Assembly (NCBI RefSeq): GCF_030770395.1
Contig: NZ_CP132480.1
Span: forward strand, 3,623,071-3,687,070
Reading direction: 5' to 3'
DNA length: 64,000 nt
From: Telluria beijingensis
GTDB taxonomy: Bacteria; Pseudomonadota; Gammaproteobacteria; Burkholderiales; Burkholderiaceae_D
Position numbers and translations under genes: made by a program. Of the stretch, positions 1 through 10,084 are shown one piece after another (positions within the stretch are counted from its first letter, which is position 1; each line of letters starts with the position of its first letter). The notes under the pieces were generated by a model. It had not been told where the DNA came from. It was given only the letters and a program-made list of their open reading frames with translations, and did not search any database.

Positions 1-111
1 CGAGATCTTTTTTGCCGATGGCGCTGGTATTTGTCTGGATTGCTTGTTAGAATGCACGCCGGAATTCAGGAAGCCTGTTGCCCAGTTGAGGAACAGTTTT
101 CCAGCAAGTTA
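1..111 (+). other. rRNA operon spacer upstream of 5S
   Basis: This stretch precedes the 5S gene and has no coding frame I can support. It does not contain the conserved 3' end of 23S rRNA, so I read it as the 23S-5S spacer of an rRNA operon whose 16S and 23S genes lie before the window. Confidence 0.6.
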
Positions 112-226
112 TGCCTGATGACCATAGCAAGTCGGTACCACCCCTTCCCATCCCGAACAGGACCGTGAAACGACATTGCGACGATGATAGTGCTGCAACC
201 AGTGTGAAAGTAGTTTATCGTCAGGC
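112..226 (+). rRNA. rrf: 5S ribosomal RNA
   Basis: The sequence carries the betaproteobacterial 5S pattern: it begins GCCTGATGACCATAGCAAG, contains the CCCATCCCGAACAGG core and ends GTTTATCGTCAGGC, so that the first and last bases pair to form helix I. Length is about 115 nt, normal for 5S. A few internal positions (for example GACATTGCGACGATG and GTAGTTTATC) differ from the sequence I would expect in close relatives, from memory. It is the last gene of an operon that starts before the window, and an intrinsic terminator follows 14 nt later. Confidence 0.93.
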
Positions 227-240
227 TATTCAATAGAGAG

Positions 241-275
241 AAAGCCCACCAGATTGCCTGGTGGGCTTTTTTGTT
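241..275 (+). terminator. Intrinsic terminator of the rRNA operon
   Basis: A perfect 12-bp stem (AAAGCCCACCAG at 241-252, CTGGTGGGCTTT at 258-269) with a 5-nt loop is followed by a T-rich run. It lies directly after 5S. It also falls just beyond the 3' end of the convergent aldo/keto reductase gene and may serve both. Confidence 0.92.
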
Positions 276-296
276 TTCCGGGCCTGGAATTGGGGT

Positions 297-1163
297 TCAG
301 GCCGCGATCGCGTCCAGTTCCGCCAGGGCGTCTTTCGGCAGCACGAGTGCTGCCGCGGCGATGTTCTCGCGCAGGTGGACCGGCGAGGAGGTGCCGGGAA
401 TGAGCAGGATGTTCGGCGAGCGCTGCAGCAGCCAGGCGATCGCGACCTGCATCGGCGTGGCGTCGAGCCGGGCTGCGACGGCCGACAGGGCGTTCGACTG
501 CAGCGGCGTGAATCCACCGAGCGGGAAGAAGGGCACATAGGGGATGCCCTGGCGTGCCAGCGCATCGATCATCGCGTCGTCAGCGCGGTGGACCAGGTTA
601 TACATATTCTGGACGCAGGCGATTGGCAGGATGCGTTGCGCTTCCTCGAGCTGGCGCGGCGTCACGTTGCTCAGGCCGATGTGCTGGATCAGGCCGCGCT
701 GGCGCAGTTCGGCAAGGGTCGCCAGTTGCGGTTCGAGCGAGCCTTCCGCCGGTTTGTAGGGGTCGAACATGGCGCGCAGATTTACTACTTCCAATGTCTC
801 CAGTCCCAGGTTGCGCAGGTTGTCGTGCACGGCCTGTTCGAGTTCGGGCGCCGAGAAGGCGGGCAGCCAGCTGCCATCGGCGCCGCGCCGCGCGCTGACC
901 TTGGTCACGATCACGAGTTCTTCGTTGTAAGGGTGGAGTGCTTCGCGGATCAACTGGTTGGTGATGTGCGGGCCATAGAAATCCGAGGTGTCGATATGGT
1001 TCACGCCAAGTTCCAGCGCTTCGCGCAGCACCTTATGCGCGGTCGCCGCATCCTTGGGCGGGCCGAAGGCGTTGGGGCCGGCCAGTTGCATGGCGCCGTA
1101 GCCGAGGCGGTGTACCGTGCGGCTGCCGAGGGAATAGGTACCGGCTTGATCGATGGTGGACAT
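297..1163 (-). CDS. Aldo/keto reductase
   Basis: A protein of 288 aa, the size of single-domain aldo/keto reductases (NADPH-dependent TIM barrels). The N-terminal LGYGAMQLAGP and the HIDTSDFYGP segment (Asp and Tyr of the AKR catalytic set) are visible. NLRNLGLETLEVVNLRAMFD, GLSNV and a C-terminal LIPGTSSPVHLRENI follow, the last being typical of the cofactor-phosphate binding loop. Start at 1163 is chosen because GGAGAAC lies about 6 nt upstream; an in-frame upstream extension has no ribosome site. The gene is divergent from the LysR gene at 1263, its likely regulator. The substrate cannot be told from sequence. Confidence 0.88.
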   Translation of the reverse strand: MSTIDQAGTYSLGSRTVHRLGYGAMQLAGPNAFGPPKDAATAHKVLREALELGVNHIDTSDFYGPHITNQLIREALHPYNEELVIVTKVSARRGADGSWLPAFSAPELEQAVHDNLRNLGLETLEVVNLRAMFDPYKPAEGSLEPQLATLAELRQRGLIQHIGLSNVTPRQLEEAQRILPIACVQNMYNLVHRADDAMIDALARQGIPYVPFFPLGGFTPLQSNALSAVAARLDATPMQVAIAWLLQRSPNILLIPGTSSPVHLRENIAAAALVLPKDALAELDAIAA

Positions 1164-1262
1164 GCTTGTTCTCCTGGGATTTGGTTGAGCAATCAAGATA
1201 AGGCGCGGCCGTCTGTGTGACAATCCAGGTAAATCCACACGGGTTGTGCGAAAAGGCGAACA
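1164..1262. promoter_or_regulatory. Divergent promoter region, aldo/keto reductase and LysR
   Basis: This 99-bp gap separates two divergent starts, a layout typical of a LysR regulator and its target. It contains a small imperfect palindrome, CACACGGGTTGTG (about 1237-1249), which could be part of a LysR site. I could not assign clear -35 and -10 boxes. Confidence 0.4.
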
Positions 1263-2189
1263 ATGAAAGTTGAGCTGGGTGATTTATCTGCGTTTGTCGC
1301 GGTGGCGCGCGCAGGAGGATTTCGCGAAGCGGCGCGCGCGACCGATAGCAGCGCTTCCGGCCTGAGCGAAGCAGTGCGGCGGCTGGAAACGCGCCTGGGC
1401 GTGCGTTTGCTCAATCGAACGACGCGCAGTGTCGTGCCGACGGAGGCCGGGCGCAGCCTGCTGCTGCGCCTCGATCCGGTATTGAGCGAGATCGATAATG
1501 CTCTCGATGTGGTCAATGGGTTCCGGGACAAGCCCACAGGAACCTTGCGCCTGAATGTATCCATGAGTGCGGCGCGGCTCGTCCTGCCGTCCATCGTGCC
1601 GCGTTTTCTTGCCGCGTATCCGGAGATTCGGCTGGAAGTCGTGGCGGATGAGACCTTTGTCGATGTGCTGGCGGCCGGGTGCGATGCGGGCATTCGCTAT
1701 GAAGAGCGTCTGGAGCAGGACATGATCGCGGTGCCGATCGGTCCGCGCGTCCAGCGCATGGCGGCGGCGGCTTCGCCGGCGTTTCTCGCCAGGTGCGGCG
1801 CGCTGGAACATCCGCGTGACCTGCCGCTGGGTGCCTGTATCCGGGCGCGCTTTGCGAGCGGCGCGATGATCCACTGGCAGTTCGAGCGGGATGGCGAGGC
1901 GATCACCATCGAGCCGAATGGGCAGTTGCTGGTGCAGGTGGGCGCCGCACTGGACTTGGCTCTCGATGCTGCGGTGCAGGGACTCGGCGTCATCTATCTG
2001 TTTGAGGACTGGCTGACGCCGTACTTCGAGCGAGGGCTGTTGCAGCCGGTGCTGCAGCTGTGGTGGCCGCAGTTTTCAGGTCCCTTCCTGTATTACCCAG
2101 GTCACAGGCTGGTGCCGGCGCCGCTGCGGGCTTTTGTGGATTTCATCCGCAACGAGGGGCAGGTTGCGACGGATTCGTCACACAAATGA
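1263..2189 (+). CDS. LysR-family transcriptional regulator
   Basis: 308 aa, the usual LysR length. An N-terminal winged helix-turn-helix (GDLSAFVAVARAGGFREAAR, then SGLSEAVRRLETRLGVRLLN and RTTRSVVPTEAGR) is followed by a periplasmic-binding-protein-like effector domain that starts near GTLRLNVSMSAARLVLP. It probably controls the divergent aldo/keto reductase gene, a very common pairing in proteobacteria. The effector is unknown. The next signal downstream is an rRNA promoter. Confidence 0.93.
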   Translation: MKVELGDLSAFVAVARAGGFREAARATDSSASGLSEAVRRLETRLGVRLLNRTTRSVVPTEAGRSLLLRLDPVLSEIDNALDVVNGFRDKPTGTLRLNVSMSAARLVLPSIVPRFLAAYPEIRLEVVADETFVDVLAAGCDAGIRYEERLEQDMIAVPIGPRVQRMAAAASPAFLARCGALEHPRDLPLGACIRARFASGAMIHWQFERDGEAITIEPNGQLLVQVGAALDLALDAAVQGLGVIYLFEDWLTPYFERGLLQPVLQLWWPQFSGPFLYYPGHRLVPAPLRAFVDFIRNEGQVATDSSHK

Positions 2190-2200
2190 AAAATAAGGTG

Positions 2201-2229
2201 TTGACGAAGCTCAGCAGCACCGGCATAAT
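2201..2229 (+). promoter_or_regulatory. rRNA operon promoter (P1-like)
   Basis: TTGACG (2201-2206) and CATAAT (2224-2229) are separated by exactly 17 nt, close to the sigma-70 consensus. An A-rich UP-like stretch precedes them. The position, about 270 nt before the first base of 16S, fits an rrn promoter. The promoter looks intact although the rRNA genes behind it are not. Confidence 0.8.
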
Positions 2230-2495
2230 CTCATTCCTCTGCTGCTGACGAACAAAACGATTCGAAGCAACGCAGCAGATGAAGCAGTGCCGAATAAAGT
2301 TCTTTAAAAATTAACAGTCGATAAGTGTGGGCGTTTGATGAAGGTGCCAAGAACTTCGGTTCTTGATTACTTAAAATATCAAATGTTCACAAAAAGTATT
2401 AACGTTGCTTCAGCAATGAAGTGACGGTCAGTATTTTGAGTGAGCGACTCGGCTAGCAATAGTCGATGACTCGAAAGAGTCAACAAACAGAGATT
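2230..2495 (+). ncRNA. 16S rRNA leader with boxA
   Basis: This is the transcribed leader between the rrn promoter and 16S. AGTTCTTTAAAA at 2299-2310 resembles the boxA antitermination element, and a nearby stretch containing CGATAAGTGTGGGCG is typical of betaproteobacterial rrn leaders. Short hairpin-forming segments such as AAGAACTTCGGTTCTT (2349-2364) are present. No protein is encoded. Confidence 0.7.
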
Positions 2496-2558
2496 GAACT
2501 GAAGAGTTTGATCCTGGCTCAGATTGAACGCTGGCGGCATGCTTTACACATGCAAGTC
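2496..2558 (+). rRNA. rrs: 16S rRNA, 5' fragment only (about 63 nt)
   Basis: GAAGAGTTTGATCCTGGCTC, ATTGAACGCTGGCGGCATGC and TTTACACATGCAAGTCG are the first bases of a betaproteobacterial 16S gene. After GCAAGTCG the normal sequence (AACGGCAGC and onward) is absent and RHS coding sequence begins. No other part of 16S, 23S or an rRNA-linked tRNA follows. The fragment is non-functional as rRNA if the assembly is correct; an assembly chimera is an equally serious possibility. Confidence 0.92.
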
Positions 2559-2560
2559 GG

Positions 2561-4312
2561 CTGCTGCTCGACGGGCAAGAGCTTGTTTCCTTCGAGCGTG
2601 ACGCGCTGTATCGGGAAACCGGCCGCACTCAGGCCAACGGCCTGTTGCAAACGATGAAGTACGATCCGGCTGGCCGCCTGATTGAACAACAACTTGGCGC
2701 CATCGCGCAGACAGGCCAGACGAACCGACAGGTTCAACGCGACACCTACCGTCCCGACCTTCAGGTCGGCATGCGAGCCGCGATCCTGCGGCGCTACAGC
2801 TATGACCCGTCCGGCCAACTAACCAGCGTCGAAGACAACCGGCGCGGCCGCATCGAATACCGTTACGACCCGATTGGACGGCTGCTGGCGGCGAGCAGCG
2901 TACTGGGCCATGAAACCTTCGCCTTCGATCCAGCCGGCAACATCCAGGTAGCCGCGACCACGCAGTACGAGCCTACTACCTCTCGTGTACAGCTGCCAAA
3001 GCTGCTGAACAACCTGCTCAAGGAGTATGCCGGTGTCAGCTACAGCTACGATGACCGCGGCAATGTCGTGAAACGTAGCCAAGACGGCTTACATTCCGAG
3101 TATGAATGGGATGCGTTCAATCGGATGACCCGTGCAACGACTTGGCAGGGCTTCACCACCTTTGCCTACGATCCACTGGGGCGACGAATCGTCAAACACA
3201 GCAAAGCAGATGGAGAAACTCTACTGAGGAACACAACCCAGACCATGTACGGCTGGGATGGCGACACGCTAGCGTGGGAAAGCAGCGTGCACGGGGGCCA
3301 TGCTGCGATGGAACGGGCGGTGCACTATGTATACGAACGCAATAGCTTTGTGCCGCTAATTCAGGCCACCCAAAGCCGCATGATCCAGTTGGCGCCCACT
3401 ACCGACGTTAAGGCGCTAATGGTGGGCAACGGCGGCAAGTATGATCCTGCGCTCGATCCGCTATGGAACGGTGAGCGCGAGCAGAAAGCTGAGCCGTTTG
3501 GTAAAGATGAGATCTCTTTTTTTCAGTGTGATCATCTGGGTACGCCGCAGGAGGTAACAGATTGCAATGGAAAGGTAGCATGGTCGGCTCAGTATAAAGC
3601 TTGGGGGGAGGCAAAAGAGGCAATCAGCGAGACGGCACTCAAGACCGGGAAACGTAATCCAATTCGGTTTCAAGGGCAATACTTTGACGAGGAAACGGAA
3701 CTACATTATAACCGCCATCGATATTACGACCCAGTTAGCGGCCGCTTTATATGCAAGGATCCGATCGGATTGTTAGGCGGTTTTAATACTCATGCATATG
3801 CGCCGAACCCCGTTCAATGGGTTGACCCGCTGGGATTGGCCCCAAAGAAAAAAGATTCTATTAATAATGGCTGTGCCAACTGCGATCCATGCCAAGGTCG
3901 TAATCCCGCCGCAATCGCGCGGTCTTGGCAAGGCCGTGAACCTTACGATGGCGTCGATAGTTATATCAATGTCGTCGTGAAAGAGGGAACTGTACTCTAC
4001 ACGCTTTATCCACACGGAGACGCACCAGGAAATTACTTGGTGAAATCCAATGTAGTGCGAGGCGCCCACACTGCTAGGCAGTACAATGACGCTGTGCAGG
4101 TTGCTCACAAGGAAAATTGGAAAAGCCGCGACGCGAGGCCTATGCGCACCAAAGTTCACGGTTATGCTCTTACCAAGGATACCTGCATGGCAGTTAGTAT
4201 TGCAAAAAACAATCCAAAACTAGGAAAGGGTGGCGCCAAACAATATTTCATAGAAAATAGAGATAAGCCTAACCTTTTAGATACAGGACGAATTATTGCT
4301 TATGGAAGTTAA
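2561..4312 (+). CDS. RHS repeat polymorphic toxin, 5'-truncated (C-terminal part of core plus variable toxin tip)
   Basis: The frame is open from the 16S junction to 4312 (about 583 aa). The first recognisable residues, LLLDGQELVSFERDALYRE, are already inside an RHS core, so the large N-terminal part (usually about 1,000 aa, with PAAR or VgrG-binding regions) is missing. YD repeats follow (YDPAGRLIEQQ, YSYDPSGQL, YRYDPIGRLL, YDPLGRRIVKH). The core ends with the conserved HRYYDPVSGRFICKDPIGL and WVDPLGL segment. The last 150 or so residues are the variable toxin tip. They start after PLGLAPKKKDS, have a CANCDPC cluster, are more AT-rich, and match no family I can name with confidence. The first possible start is TTG at 2645 without a clear ribosome site. 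In intact relatives such proteins are exported, often by type VI secretion, and the tip is released into a target cell. Confidence 0.88.
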   Translation: MLLDGQELVSFERDALYRETGRTQANGLLQTMKYDPAGRLIEQQLGAIAQTGQTNRQVQRDTYRPDLQVGMRAAILRRYSYDPSGQLTSVEDNRRGRIEYRYDPIGRLLAASSVLGHETFAFDPAGNIQVAATTQYEPTTSRVQLPKLLNNLLKEYAGVSYSYDDRGNVVKRSQDGLHSEYEWDAFNRMTRATTWQGFTTFAYDPLGRRIVKHSKADGETLLRNTTQTMYGWDGDTLAWESSVHGGHAAMERAVHYVYERNSFVPLIQATQSRMIQLAPTTDVKALMVGNGGKYDPALDPLWNGEREQKAEPFGKDEISFFQCDHLGTPQEVTDCNGKVAWSAQYKAWGEAKEAISETALKTGKRNPIRFQGQYFDEETELHYNRHRYYDPVSGRFICKDPIGLLGGFNTHAYAPNPVQWVDPLGLAPKKKDSINNGCANCDPCQGRNPAAIARSWQGREPYDGVDSYINVVVKEGTVLYTLYPHGDAPGNYLVKSNVVRGAHTARQYNDAVQVAHKENWKSRDARPMRTKVHGYALTKDTCMAVSIAKNNPKLGKGGAKQYFIENRDKPNLLDTGRIIAYGS

Positions 4313-4314
4313 GA

Positions 4315-4773
4315 ATGCAAACCATTAAATTAGACTTGGAACATGGATCGGTTTTTGTTGATTCATTACCTATAAAAGTTGACGAAGACGGAATTCTCGC
4401 TGGATCTATCTTAGGATTATGTTCACCACCAATTGATACCGACACGGGAAGCACACAATATCGCTTGCTGAGAAAAGTAAGTATTTTCGGAAAACCCGCC
4501 AGTGTCGTGATCGAAATCGGCGCTGGAAGAGTATGTGCCATAGCTTTCTTATTTGATCTGATCGAGTTCTTCGAATCCAGCGTTCTAGAATCAAAGATAT
4601 TAAAAGCATGTGAGAAATCTTTAAATGCTAGTTTTATTAGCAATCATCCAAGCACTGCTTTTCTTGACATCTACGAATGGGGGAAGCTAACGTTTTTTTA
4701 TGATGCCAAGCAAGGAGATCTGAGCTTGGATATTACTTTCCATAAAACTCAAAGGAATCCAATTAGTACCTAA
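4315..4773 (+). CDS. Probable immunity protein for the RHS toxin tip
   Basis: 152 aa, AT-rich, acidic (N-terminal DLEHGSVFVDSLPIKVDEDG), without signal peptide or membrane segment. It starts 2 nt after the RHS stop codon and so is almost certainly co-transcribed and translationally coupled. The position directly after the variable tip, the small size and the base composition are those of cognate immunity genes in polymorphic toxin systems. I recognise no family. The function is inferred from context only. Confidence 0.65.
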   Translation: MQTIKLDLEHGSVFVDSLPIKVDEDGILAGSILGLCSPPIDTDTGSTQYRLLRKVSIFGKPASVVIEIGAGRVCAIAFLFDLIEFFESSVLESKILKACEKSLNASFISNHPSTAFLDIYEWGKLTFFYDAKQGDLSLDITFHKTQRNPIST

Positions 4774-5127
4774 AGCGTAATAAACATAAACTAATATCCC
4801 TAATTGGACTTGCGGAAAAATGAATCAATCTTAGCATCAAAATAATACTCACTTATTCTTGTTATGAAGACATAAGCTCTCTCGCCGAAGAGGTGCACTT
4901 AGTACCTTTTTGAAGTCCAAGCACGGGCGCTCGACAGAAAGGTTGGGGAGAATTTAGTATTCAGCAAGCACTGGCAATAAAAATCTTGCGCTTTATTGAA
5001 AATAGCGAAGACCAAAACCGGCGGTTCCTCCCACCAGTCCAACTGCCGTTAGTGACAGAGTACCCAGTTGCATCCGAACCAGACGGCTACTGATCTACGC
5101 ACATCATCAATTCCATTGGAGAGAGAA
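4774..5127 (+). other. AT-rich intergenic stretch between immunity gene and PAAR gene
   Basis: The stretch is about 350 bp and lower in GC than the surroundings. Apart from the short coding remnant at 4941-5093 I see no gene. Such debris is usual where RHS tips and immunity genes have been exchanged. Confidence 0.5.
4941..5093 (+). pseudogene. Coding remnant, 50-residue C-terminal tail of an unknown protein
   Basis: One frame reads GWGEFSIQQALAIKILRFIE, continues through NRRFLPPVQLPLVTEYPVAS and ends EPDGY before TGA at 5091-5093. The composition looks like real protein with an amphipathic helix, but upstream stop codons leave no start codon or ribosome site. It may be the end of an older displaced toxin or immunity gene. 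No family is recognised. Confidence 0.35.
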
Positions 5128-5406
5128 ATGTCATTGAAGATTATTACAGTCGGAGACAAAACCAACCATGGCGGTATAGTTATCAGCGGCTCGCCCGACC
5201 ACGACATCAGGGGAAAAGCAGTCGCTCGACTAGGTGACAAAGTTGACTGTCCGCAGCCCTATCCCGGCGGCAAACCGCACGGCGTAAATAAAATCATTAC
5301 GGGCCACGACACACTCACGGTTAACGGAGTTCCTGTTGCAGTAGAGGGATGCATGACGGAATGCGGGTGCGCGCTGATCGGCAGCATGCCTGCAACGGCG
5401 GACTGA
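5128..5406 (+). CDS. PAAR domain protein (type VI secretion spike tip)
   Basis: 92 aa, a stand-alone PAAR protein. MSLKIITVGDKTNHGGIVIS, the GKAVARLGDKVDCP segment, GHDTLTVNGVPVAVEGC and TECGCALIG give the expected beta-repeat pattern with Cys/His residues for metal binding. PAAR proteins cap the VgrG trimer of type VI secretion and carry effectors. Start 5128 is chosen because GGAGAGAG lies about 7 nt upstream; an in-frame upstream start lacks one. It lies downstream of the RHS and immunity genes, whereas in most clusters PAAR precedes RHS or is fused to it. No vgrG, hcp or tss gene is in the window. Confidence 0.88.
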   Translation: MSLKIITVGDKTNHGGIVISGSPDHDIRGKAVARLGDKVDCPQPYPGGKPHGVNKIITGHDTLTVNGVPVAVEGCMTECGCALIGSMPATAD

Positions 5407-5433
5407 AGACCTTCTGAAGTCGTGATGCGTCGA

Positions 5434-6528
5434 TTAAGGAATATGTCCCGACGCGACATCCTCGTCATGCTTGACGATCGGATCTTCAGTCCCGGTCCAC
5501 TCGCTCATCAGGGAATAGCCAACCGCCAGCAACACCGGCCCGATGAACATCCCGACAAACCCAAAGGCAATCACCCCACCCAACACCCCAAGCAGGGTAA
5601 GCAAAAACGGCAAGCTGCTACCGCGGCTGATCAGCATCGGCCGCACTACATTGTCGACACCGCTGATCAGGACCGTGCCCCAGATCGCCATGAAAATCGC
5701 CCACCCAGTCTCGCCATGGGCGAACAGCCAGATAGTCGCCCCACCCCACACCAGCGGCGGCCCAAGCGGGATCAACGAAGTTAAAAACACCAGCACCGAC
5801 AACAATGGCACTGCCGGCACCCCAGCAATCGCAAACCCGACCGCCGCCACCAGCGCCTGGGCCAGGGCAGTGCCCAATAAGCCATACATCACGCCGCGCA
5901 CGGTCTGCCCAACCGTGGCCTGGATCGATTCGGCGCCCTCGCCCATCACCTTGCGCATCGTCACCGCGATCACGGCCAGCAGCGCATTGCCGTCGCGGTA
6001 CAGGAAGAAGCTGACGAAGGCCGCCAGGCTCATCTGCACGACGCCGGTGCCGAGCATGATCCCGCCTGCCACCAGCCAGTGGCGCGCCGGTTCCAGCATG
6101 CGCTGGGCCAGGGCCAGCATCTGTTCGCGGCTGGCGATCAGCTCGTTCAGGTAGTCGACCAGCGTGGACCCGATCAGGGGGATGTTGGCCAGCCAGGCCG
6201 GCGGCGCCAGTTCGCGGTGCTCGATCAGGAGGCGCAGTTCCCCGAATCCGCGCGCCACGTCGTCGGCCAGGTTGTAGGCCACCATCGACAGCGGGATGAT
6301 GAACAGCAGGGTCAGGGTGAGCGTCATCGTCAGCGCCGCAACGGTGCGCTGGCCACGGCATCGCTCCAGCAGGCGCAGGTACAGGGGCCAGGTCGAGATG
6401 GCGACCGCGGCGGCGAACAGGATCGCCGGCAGGAAGGGGCGCAGGACGTAGAGACAGCCCAGCGTCAGCAGGACGACGATCGCGATGCGGGTGTAGTTCC
6501 TGCCAGGGCGTGCTTCCATGCGGTTCAT
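5434..6528 (-). CDS. AI-2E family transporter (UPF0118/PerM type)
   Basis: 364 aa with about seven or eight hydrophobic segments. Two near the N-terminus (IAIVVLLTLGCLYVLRPFLP and the following AAAVAIS stretch) are followed by a soluble loop, then a C-terminal membrane bundle containing SLIPLGPPLVWGGATIW, GVDNVVRPMLI and FGFVGMFIGPVLLAVGYSL, which are family hallmarks. Members include the proposed autoinducer-2 exporter TqsA and Na+/H+ antiporters, so the substrate is open. It is transcribed towards the PAAR gene and looks monocistronic. Confidence 0.87.
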   Translation of the reverse strand: MNRMEARPGRNYTRIAIVVLLTLGCLYVLRPFLPAILFAAAVAISTWPLYLRLLERCRGQRTVAALTMTLTLTLLFIIPLSMVAYNLADDVARGFGELRLLIEHRELAPPAWLANIPLIGSTLVDYLNELIASREQMLALAQRMLEPARHWLVAGGIMLGTGVVQMSLAAFVSFFLYRDGNALLAVIAVTMRKVMGEGAESIQATVGQTVRGVMYGLLGTALAQALVAAVGFAIAGVPAVPLLSVLVFLTSLIPLGPPLVWGGATIWLFAHGETGWAIFMAIWGTVLISGVDNVVRPMLISRGSSLPFLLTLLGVLGGVIAFGFVGMFIGPVLLAVGYSLMSEWTGTEDPIVKHDEDVASGHIP

Positions 6529-6703
6529 GAGCGGATAATGTTTACGCCATCTTAGCAGCTACACAAGGCACGTCGCGTCCCTGCAATGCAATGACCAGAC
6601 AGCCGCTATGCGACATGCCTTGTCGCCGACCCGAATAGACTTTCCGCTAATAAAGGATACATACTGCTCATCCTTCCTACCACGATAAATATCGGAGAAG
6701 TTC

Positions 6704-7447
6704 TTGCACCGACTTTTGGAACAATATACCCACATCCTTGGCAGGATGAACCGAGAAAGCTTTCCACTGGAAGACGATCGCTACTCGGGCGTTTTCTTGC
6801 CTGTTGCTTTCGGCGACTACTGGACGAGTGACTTCCGGGTGATGCACGTGGGGCGAGAGACCGCAGGATGGAATACCAGGACCGGCCGCAACAGGCTCGA
6901 GCGCATCTTCGCCGCCAACCAGGCTGGCGATACGCGGCACATTGTCGAGGAAGCGGTGACCAGATATCGCCAGCATCTGCCAATTCAGCCTGATGGCAAG
7001 GTGACGATGACGACCAGGAGCCGTTTCAAGCAATACTATTTTCGGCTCGCAAAGGAATTGGGCGTAACGCCCACCTCGCTCATCTATGCCAACGTATTCG
7101 CATGGGATTACGCTGGCAAATCGCCGCTTGATCGTCCGGCGCAGGAACTGGCGCCTGTCAGCGCCGTCTCCTTGGAGTTGCTTGCAACGCAAATTCGATT
7201 TTTCAAACCCGACGCCATCGTGTTTTCGACAGGTCGGCACGGCATCGACCATCGTCTCAAACAATTATTTGAAACGTATTTCGACGGCTACCAGACTGTC
7301 AGCAGGGAGCCCGGCAAGATGTGGGAATTCCGGGCAGGACAGATAACCTGCTTCCGCATCGCCCACCCGCGGGCGCTGCGAGGCCATCAGCAGTACCGGA
7401 CGGACGTCATCCAGCGGCTGAAGGACATCCGAGCCGAACGTTCATAG
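6704..7447 (+). CDS. Uncharacterised protein with uracil-DNA-glycosylase-like features
   Basis: 247 aa, no signal peptide. VMHVGRETAGWN (about residue 46), LIYANVFAWDYAGKSPLD, IRFFKPDAIVFSTGRHGID and a C-terminal RIAHPRALRGHQ resemble the order of conserved segments in the UDG-like superfamily (N-terminal glycine-rich loop, central strand-loop with FSTG, C-terminal HP motif). This is pattern resemblance only. The start is TTG at 6704 with GGAGAAG about 7 nt upstream. It overlaps the end of the convergent sco gene by 6 bp. Confidence 0.5.
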   Translation: MHRLLEQYTHILGRMNRESFPLEDDRYSGVFLPVAFGDYWTSDFRVMHVGRETAGWNTRTGRNRLERIFAANQAGDTRHIVEEAVTRYRQHLPIQPDGKVTMTTRSRFKQYYFRLAKELGVTPTSLIYANVFAWDYAGKSPLDRPAQELAPVSAVSLELLATQIRFFKPDAIVFSTGRHGIDHRLKQLFETYFDGYQTVSREPGKMWEFRAGQITCFRIAHPRALRGHQQYRTDVIQRLKDIRAERS

Positions 7448-8032
7448 CAGCTGGCGCAGGTCGTGCGCGATCAGCGCCGGCCCCTGTCCGTGGCGCACGA
7501 ACAGGCGCAGGTGGCCCTGCTTGTCGAACACGAAGCTGCCGGCGGTGTGGTCCACCGTGTAGCTGGCCGGGTCGGCGCCCGGCACCTTGGCATAGTAGAC
7601 CTTGAATTCCTTGGCCACCTTCGCGGTCGCGGCAGCATCGCCGTACAGGCCGACGAAGCGCTGGTCGAAGGCCGGCACGTAGTGCGACAGCAGCTCTTGC
7701 GTGTCGCGCTCGGGGTCGACCGTGATGAACAGTACCTGCACGTCGCTGCTCGACGGCCCCAGCTCCTTCATCACGGTGGCCATCTCGGACATCGTGGTCG
7801 GGCACACGTCGGGGCACTGGGTGTAGCCGAAGAAGATCACCACCACCTTGCCCTTGTAGTCGGCCAGGGTGCGCGGCTTGCCGGTATGGTCGGTCAGCGC
7901 GAAGCCCTTGGCGTAGTCGACACCGGTGACGTCGGTGTTGTGGAAGGCCAGCGGCTTCTCGCCCAGCTTGTCGCAACCGGCAGCCAGCAGCGCCACGGCG
8001 GAGAACCCCAACACACCCAAGAGCTTTTTCAT
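7442..8032 (-). CDS. sco1: SCO1/SenC copper chaperone lipoprotein
   Basis: 196 aa. A lipoprotein signal ends LLAAGC (Cys20), so the protein is expected on the periplasmic membrane face. The thioredoxin fold carries the copper motif CPDVC (Cys73, Cys77) and the distal His162 in TVDHTAG. SCO proteins deliver copper to the CuA centre of cytochrome oxidase subunit II. It is the last gene of the cox operon, with 1 nt between it and ctaB. Confidence 0.95.
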   Translation of the reverse strand: MKKLLGVLGFSAVALLAAGCDKLGEKPLAFHNTDVTGVDYAKGFALTDHTGKPRTLADYKGKVVVIFFGYTQCPDVCPTTMSEMATVMKELGPSSSDVQVLFITVDPERDTQELLSHYVPAFDQRFVGLYGDAAATAKVAKEFKVYYAKVPGADPASYTVDHTAGSFVFDKQGHLRLFVRHGQGPALIAHDLRQLL

Positions 8033-8033
8033 G

Positions 8034-8927
8034 TCAGAACCTGAAGTAATGGTCGATCAACAGGGCCGCGAACAGCAGCGACAGGTAGACAATCGACCAG
8101 GTGAAGGTCTTGCGCGCCGCCATGTCGCTGTAGTGGCGGTGCACCCGCCACGAGTGGCGCAGGAAGACGGCGTTGAGCGGAATCGCCGCCGCCAGGTAGA
8201 TCAGGCCGCTCATGCCGACCGCGAACGGCAGCAGGGTGGTCGCGGCCAGGCCGATCGTGTACAGCCACACCTGCAGGCCGGTGAACTGCATGCCGTGGGT
8301 GACCGGCAGCATCGGCAGGCCGGAGCGGGCGTAGTCGTCGCGCCGGTACATGGCCAGCACCCAGAAATGCGGCGGGGTCCACATGAAGATGATCAGGACC
8401 AGCAGCCAGGCTTCCATCGGCACCTCGTTGGCGACGGCCGCCCAGCCCAGGGCCGGCGGCATGGCGCCCGACAGGCCGCCGATCACGATGTTCTGCGACG
8501 TGTTCGGCTTGAGCAGTAAGGTATAGATGAAGGCATAGCCGACGAAGGTGACGAAGGTCAGCCACATGGTCAGCGGATTGACGAAGGCGTACAGGATGTA
8601 CATGCCGAGGCCGCCGAGCAGGATCGAGAAGGTCACCGTCTGCGTGGTGCTCAGTTCGCCGGAGGCGGTGGCGCGGCGCGCGGTGCGGGCCATACGCGCA
8701 TCGATCTCGGCCTCGACCAGGCAGTTGACCGCGAAGGCGGCGGCGGCCAGCAGCCAGATGCCGGCCGTGCCGGCGACCAGGGTCTGCCATCCCGGGAAGC
8801 CGTCGGTGGCGAGGAACATCCCGATCACGGCGCAGAACACCGCCAGCTGCGTCACGCGCGGCTTGGTCAGGGTCCAGTATTGCGAGAACCGGCTCGGGGG
8901 TTTATGGATGGCGGTCTGGGTTGTCAT
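8034..8927 (-). CDS. ctaB: Protoheme IX farnesyltransferase (heme O synthase)
   Basis: 297 aa integral membrane UbiA-superfamily prenyltransferase. [20 protein letters not shown] opens the protein. [18 protein letters not shown] contains the Asp-rich prenyl-diphosphate motif, and [20 protein letters not shown] follows in the second Asp-rich region. It converts heme B to heme O. It overlaps ctaA upstream by 4 nt (ATGA), so the two heme steps are translationally coupled. Confidence 0.97.
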
Positions 8928-10084
8928 CTGGGGGTGGACTCTGGCGACGCGGCCGCCGGCGCAGGAACGGCGCGGGCCGCGTCGAGTTGGAACTTCACCC
9001 GGTAGTTTAACATGGTCACCAGGATGACCAGCAGGGCCGCCCCGGCGTTATGCATGACCGCGATCGCCAGCGGGAAGTCGAAGTACACGGTGGCGATACC
9101 GGTGAACAGCTGCACGACCATCACCAGCAGCAGCAGGCGCGCGGTCTTGCCCACTTCAGGCAAATGCCAGGCGCGCCAGGCCGCCAGGCCCAGCACCAGT
9201 ACCACCGCCAGTGCGAACGCCCGGTGCACCCAGTGGATCGCCACCAGGGCCGAGAACGGCAAATAATGGCCTTCCTTCGTCATGCCCAGCTCGCGCCACA
9301 GGTGGAAACCGTGCTCGAAGTCGAGGTCCGGCACCAGCGCCCCCTGGCACAGCGGGAAGGTATCGCAGGCCATGGTGGCGTAGTTGGTGCTTACCCACCC
9401 GCCGAGCGCGATCTGCGCCACCAGCACCACGGCCGCCAGCAGCGACAGGATGCGCAGGCCGCGCAGGCGCCGCACCAGGTCCAGCCCGCGCGCCAGCAGC
9501 GGCGGTTTCAATAGATAGTCTTCGCGGCAACCCATCCAGACCAGCATCGCCAGCAGCATCATGCCCAGCAACAGGTGGATGGTGACGATCACCGGCTGCA
9601 GCTTGAGGGTGACGGTCCAGGCGCCGAAAGCGCCCTGCACCAGCACCGACACCAGCAGCGCCAGCGGCATGGCCGGCTTGAACACTTCGTTGTGGGTCCG
9701 GCGCCATTGCTTGATCGAGGTGAACAGCAGCGCCAGGATCAGGGCGCCGATGCCCATCGCCAGGTAGCGGTGGATCATCTCGATCCAGGCCTTGGCCACC
9801 GTGACCGGGCCGGTCGGCATCGCCGCCTCGGCGGCGGCGATGTGTTCGTGGGCCAGGAAGGGATTGGCTTCGCCATAGCAGCCCGGCCAGTCCGGGCAGC
9901 CCAGGCCCGAATCGGTCAGGCGGGTGAAGCCGCCGAACACGATCAGGTCGAAGGTGAGGAAGACCATCACCCAGACCAGCTTGCGGTATTTATTGGGGTC
10001 GGCCGACATCCAGACGATGGACAGCGGCAGGCTCGCGACCAGTACGCCCATCAGGAGCAGGTGAAGCAGTGAAGACAGTTCCAT
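8924..10084 (-). CDS. ctaA: Heme A synthase (COX15/CtaA)
   Basis: 386 aa, eight hydrophobic helices in two related halves. [20 protein letters not shown] is the family signature, and heme-binding His residues occur in [24 protein letters not shown] and MHNAGA. It oxidises heme O to heme A for the aa3 oxidase. An extra Ala/Pro-rich tail ([10 protein letters not shown]) follows the last helix. It is located between the SCO-like gene and ctaB in the cox operon. Confidence 0.96.

Follow-up and report, generated by a model that had tools for sequence, protein, structure and literature searches.

The window, by which we mean the whole stretch of 64,000 nucleotides that was analysed, carries near its left end a solitary 5S rRNA gene, an aldo/keto reductase gene and a gene for a LysR-family regulator, followed by the promoter and leader of an rRNA (rrn) operon and the very start of its 16S gene. 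There the operon breaks off, and the tail of an RHS gene follows without spacer. The features concerned are the following (positions are those of the window):

114..226, + strand: solitary 5S rRNA gene (Rfam RF00001, 73.7 bits; same place in L011-L015)
1263..2189, + strand: LysR-family regulator, the last complete gene before the rrn promoter (Pfam HTH_1 and LysR_substrate; likewise followed by the rrn leader in L011-L015)
2201..2495, + strand: rrn promoter and leader (hexamers at 2201-2229; alignment with the M. timonae rrn leader)
2496..2559, + strand: first 64 nt of 16S rRNA, probably the end of the upstream contig (alignment to M. timonae 16S)
2558..2560, no strand: most probably a false join (2-nt ambiguity, CG)
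2560..4312, + strand: RHS tail, consisting of the end of the core and a variable C-terminal tip, front missing; probably the start of the downstream contig
4315..4773, + strand: small ORF after the tip, candidate immunity gene by its position only

The junction can be read directly in the letters: the rrn leader runs into nucleotides 1-64 of 16S (2496-2559), and codons from the middle of an RHS gene take over from 2558-2560. Both sides fit only at the letters CG (2558-2559), leaving an ambiguity of 2 nt; no N occurs anywhere in the window and the junction is gapless. An earlier reading (hereafter the sequence-only reading) had reported a passage from rRNA to RHS without spacer, and this is indeed present and was placed correctly to within a base or two. 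The 16S piece was also correctly recognized, though at a length of 63 nt, where alignment to the M. timonae 16S gives 64 nt. A 26-mer across the junction (at most 2 mismatches) was found in 1 of the 61 genomes searched, namely the own genome, and in 0 of the 60 others. Masking was considered as the origin of the junction and rejected: masking writes N, and the window has none.

On the left side, the whole leader aligns with the leader of M. timonae and the promoter hexamers are common to both, in agreement with the claim that promoter and leader look intact. The sigma70-like site TTGACG-17-CATAAT at 2201-2229 is the sole one in a scan of 2180-2700 (1 site found against a mean of 0.5 in shuffles, by itself not above chance), and identical hexamers precede the M. 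timonae leader too. The start of 16S follows from the alignment of 2496-2559 to the M. timonae 16S, where the start given by Rfam (L012:9223) corresponds to window 2496. With a full 16S as query, the best nucleotide match is 2499-2559 (61 nt, 100%); at the gathering threshold Rfam lists no 16S in the window, as expected for so short a piece. Within the own genome 2280-2557 is single-copy and two shorter rrn-upstream fragments are also in the record, while the rrn leader is multi-copy in relatives. Of a functional rrn operon, the promoter and leader are present; a complete 16S, 23S and 5S behind the promoter are absent (64 nt of 16S only).

The 5S gene 2.3 kb upstream had been taken for the end of another rrn operon, which proves to be wrong: the gene stands alone and occupies the corresponding position in all five close relative loci (5/5), and no 23S precedes it in the window sequence. 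The gene upstream of it lies on the opposite strand and presumably resembles a radical-SAM gene. In relatives a conserved sequence precedes the solitary 5S, and a terminator-like hairpin can be seen by eye after the gene. The conserved stretch upstream contains CTTGTTAGAATGC in 5 of the 6 aligned sequences, the locus (window 40-275) being shared with five other Massilia genomes. By eye, four bases distinguish the solitary 5S from the second 5S gene of the genome, and it could be a separately controlled 5S variant.

On the right side, the tail holds matches to RHS_repeat (PF05593) and RHS (PF03527) from Pfam and to Rhs_assc_core (TIGR03696) from NCBIfam. The repeats and the Rhs-associated core before a variable tip are thus those of an RHS protein; the N-terminal half with the full core shell is missing, and the frame of 594 codons opens in mid-core. 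No family match was found in Pfam or NCBIfam for the tip and the small ORF. Further downstream (window 5068-5406) a PAAR-motif protein (PF05488) is encoded, which fits an RHS neighbourhood linked to type VI secretion. The own genome contains two RHS-tail matches: the window copy and one at 5297074-5298360. Both tails start at the same base, have their first 42 nt (from 2558) exactly in common and are 81% identical over 1,177 nt. Immediately before the second tail there is an open histidine-kinase frame (HAMP, HisKA, HATPase and receiver). Seen as a locus of its own (L002:1501-3204, genome 5297077 onwards), this copy is truncated like the first, has a different tip followed by a small ORF, and is joined into the histidine-kinase gene.

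Among the relatives searched, 21 of 40 have a match to the RHS tail. The seven best of these matches lie in frames of 1,393-1,662 codons (one with an internal TAG), and many weaker ones in shorter frames. The sequence-only reading had proposed a search of the genome for an rhs gene without its 3' end, and the final 20 kb of the record contain two such RHS fronts (L096:5500-7738 and L096:14217-15552). As measured on the relative L136, the first front ends 333 nt short of the point where the tail starts. Two fronts, two tails and an unassembled middle are what would be expected as the short-read remains of two similar rhs genes.

To place the junction in a wider context, positions 1-9000 of the window were compared with 13 loci: L011-L015, L018, L022 and L023 (8 of 80 loci kept) together with L128-L132. 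L014 and L128 lie on one contig, and L022 and L130 were taken to do so too, which leaves 11 distinct places. The five closest loci (L011-L015) all show the succession solitary 5S, aldo/keto reductase, LysR and rrn leader, with about 2.5 kb extra between 5S and reductase in L011, L012, L013 and L015. The order of window 14-2559 is that of close Massilia relatives, and synteny is lost exactly at 2559: the match stops there in L012 and L014, the two relatives whose LysR-rrn contig reaches that far, and 2560-9000 has no match in any of the 13 loci. In M. timonae CCUG 45783 (L012) the leader continues into a complete 16S of 1,531 nt, a run of N and a 5S. The contig of M. arenae GEM5 (L014) ends at 16S nucleotide 110. 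For Massilia sp. HP4, M. aurea and Massilia sp. YIM B02443 the contig does not get beyond the leader and stops at what corresponds to window positions 2413, 2284 and 2330, respectively. Draft assemblies break at the leader or 16S because the rrn operon starts there.

In the remaining loci (L018, L022/L130, L023, L129, L131 and L132) the similarity extends only to window 2147-2155, where LysR ends, and rrn does not follow directly. An rrn operon directly after LysR was seen in the five closest relatives only, and judging from these loci the arrangement is not a general one in the genus. L129 has two rrn leaders elsewhere within the same 18 kb, and their matches stop at 2559 as well.

When the 1,530-nt 16S of M. 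timonae was searched against the whole record (6,017,275 bp, one contig), a single match of 61 nt was obtained, located within this window. The Rfam 16S model has no match in the own genome, a result that is weak alone given that the same search was positive in only 9 of 14 control genomes; it was therefore backed by the nucleotide search with a real 16S. The record further holds a partial 23S (model positions 1237-2912 at 6004968-6006576) and two 5S genes. Since a living bacterium cannot lack 16S, a record without a full 16S means that the rrn operons were left unassembled. Stretches masked with N could account for part of the absence of 16S elsewhere in the record; masking would not yield a gapless junction.

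Similar breaks were met in other pieces of the record, and those reported here are the ones encountered in the genome pieces that were read. In L003 the 3' part of dnaX (NCBIfam gamma/tau; the Pfam tau domain V scores below the curated cut-off) is fused to a fragment from upstream of an rrn operon. The N-terminal part of dnaX lies at 2917999-2919072, 3.06 Mb from the 3' part, and by eye runs into sequence unlike dnaX. Beside the end of this N-terminal part (L147:1070-1350, genome about 2917600-2917850) motifs resembling GGGTCAGAGT or GGGTCGGAGT occur several times; they may be a dispersed repeat lying at the end of a further contig. L004 shows a similar fusion, between an rrn-upstream fragment and the end of an open mreC frame. 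Normally mreD adjoins mreC; here the two are 2.06 Mb apart, with mreD at 3805938-3806357.

The end of the record (L096, genome 5997276-6017275) contains an RHS sequence joined directly to 23S at about L096:7740, followed by a run of 2,507 N. Five single Ns also occur: four stand between exact repeats (103, 109, 130 and 133 nt) and the fifth between 214-nt repeats that are 99.5% identical, which looks like overlapping contigs that were left unmerged. L096 contains serum albumin, silk fibroin light chain and eEF1A as well. The first two are animal families, and we take the eEF1A to be animal too. The second RHS front adjoins the albumin frame. Contamination by other libraries would explain this foreign sequence. 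As listed, the quality of the record is a completeness of 100 and a contamination of 0.06.

Taken together, the fusion of rRNA and RHS almost certainly represents a false join of two contigs that each end inside repeated sequence, and no new gene arrangement (we put the probability at about 0.97, judging from sequence comparison). Three observations of the kind expected for such an artefact coincide: synteny ends at the join, the sequences on both sides are multi-copy, and independent false joins occur in the same record. The record would then be a pseudo-chromosome in which contigs or scaffolds were placed end to end, here without a gap. The contigs may have broken at multi-copy sequence (rrn operons and rhs genes) or at very GC-rich stretches. 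The upstream contig, with the solitary 5S, aldo/keto reductase, LysR and rrn leader, would have stopped 64 nt into 16S, and the downstream contig would have begun where the two RHS copies of the genome merge into one unresolved repeat; the seam between them would be at 2558-2560. In the cell itself this leader is almost certainly followed by a normal 16S-23S-5S operon, and the RHS tail would be part of an ordinary rhs gene (or a detached tip). As to the use of short reads, the software and the cause of each contig stop, these are what we infer. The high listed genome quality, the absence of N at this particular join and the restriction of rrn after LysR to the five closest relatives speak against the artefact.

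The sequence-only reading had put forward assembly error as a strong rival to a real recombination, and it is the former that is strongly supported (by the loss of synteny at 2559, the near-absent 16S, the second tail with the same start and the further false joins). In the recombination scenario most of an rrn operon would have been deleted in one Massilia strain, which would place an RHS tip and its immunity gene under an rRNA promoter controlled by growth rate. The gapless junction and the intact-looking leader are in line with this, and relatives have several copies of the rrn leader, so that the loss of one operon could be tolerated. However, no other 16S match exists in the record, and the missing rRNA is therefore not a local event. 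A second RHS tail with the same first base and an unrelated gene in front of it, the parting of dnaX and of the mre genes within the same record, a fit of both sides over only 2 nt and the absence of the junction from 60 of 60 other genomes also stand against recombination, which makes it extremely improbable; the proposed new arrangement of rRNA promoter, RHS tip and immunity gene is not supported. According to a passage of PMC2935791, a paper on the evolution of rhs, these elements were discovered in a genetic screen, through unequal crossing-over between their copies, and as of 2009 no publication had described a chromosomal rearrangement through them.

Within the contig-join reading, two special cases can be considered, both unlikely. 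It might be argued that the join is false while the order is right (LysR, rrn operon, ..., RHS tail), only the repeats in between having been dropped. Paired reads or a reference may have guided the ordering of the contigs, and window 14-2559 itself follows the order of the relatives. Against this, the 3' flank of the M. timonae rrn operon (L012 after 5S) has no match in window 1-9000 outside 5S, and other joins put parts of one gene or cluster megabases apart; we consider a preserved order doubtful. Alternatively, the RHS tail could be a tip that became detached naturally (an orphan C-terminus that retains some core), in which case the left edge alone is artificial. PMC2935791 describes detached tips that come with core fragments of variable length, and many of the weaker RHS matches in relatives sit in short frames. 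Yet both tails start at the same base, two tail-less RHS fronts are present in the record and the seven best relative matches lie in the long frames given above, which leaves a detached tip with a similarly small chance.

If the fusion is a contig-join artefact, as we believe, the case matters only as a warning. The record looks complete (one contig, completeness 100), yet it is almost without a 16S match, has essential genes parted and carries animal sequence inside. Surveys of gene fusions, synteny or operon counts that use it would report false novelties. A literature search found no paper on a Massilia complete genome made with HiSeq and SSPACE.

Compared with the rrn operon of M. timonae CCUG 45783 (L012), the window has the same LysR neighbour, leader and 16S start, whereas it breaks off after 64 nt of 16S. 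The full-length RHS genes of relatives (L136-L141) share the same core stretch with the window, the tail DNA being 75-79% identical over about 1.2-2.2 kb; they differ in forming one frame of 1,521-1,662 codons (1 of 6 with an internal TAG) against the 594-codon, tail-only frame found here. The closest parallel for the record as a whole is the chromosome of E. coli NA114, whose assembly from Illumina contigs, arranged along a reference, is argued to be faulty in a part of the EC958 paper (PMC4134206); in the simulation described there, contigs that could not be placed were put at the chromosome end. Like NA114, the present record appears to have been made from short-read contigs turned into one chromosome, and rrn, rhs and foreign fragments are found in its last 150 kb. 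As far as that part of the paper describes NA114, only the present record has animal sequence and joins inside 16S, 23S, rhs, dnaX and a histidine-kinase gene.
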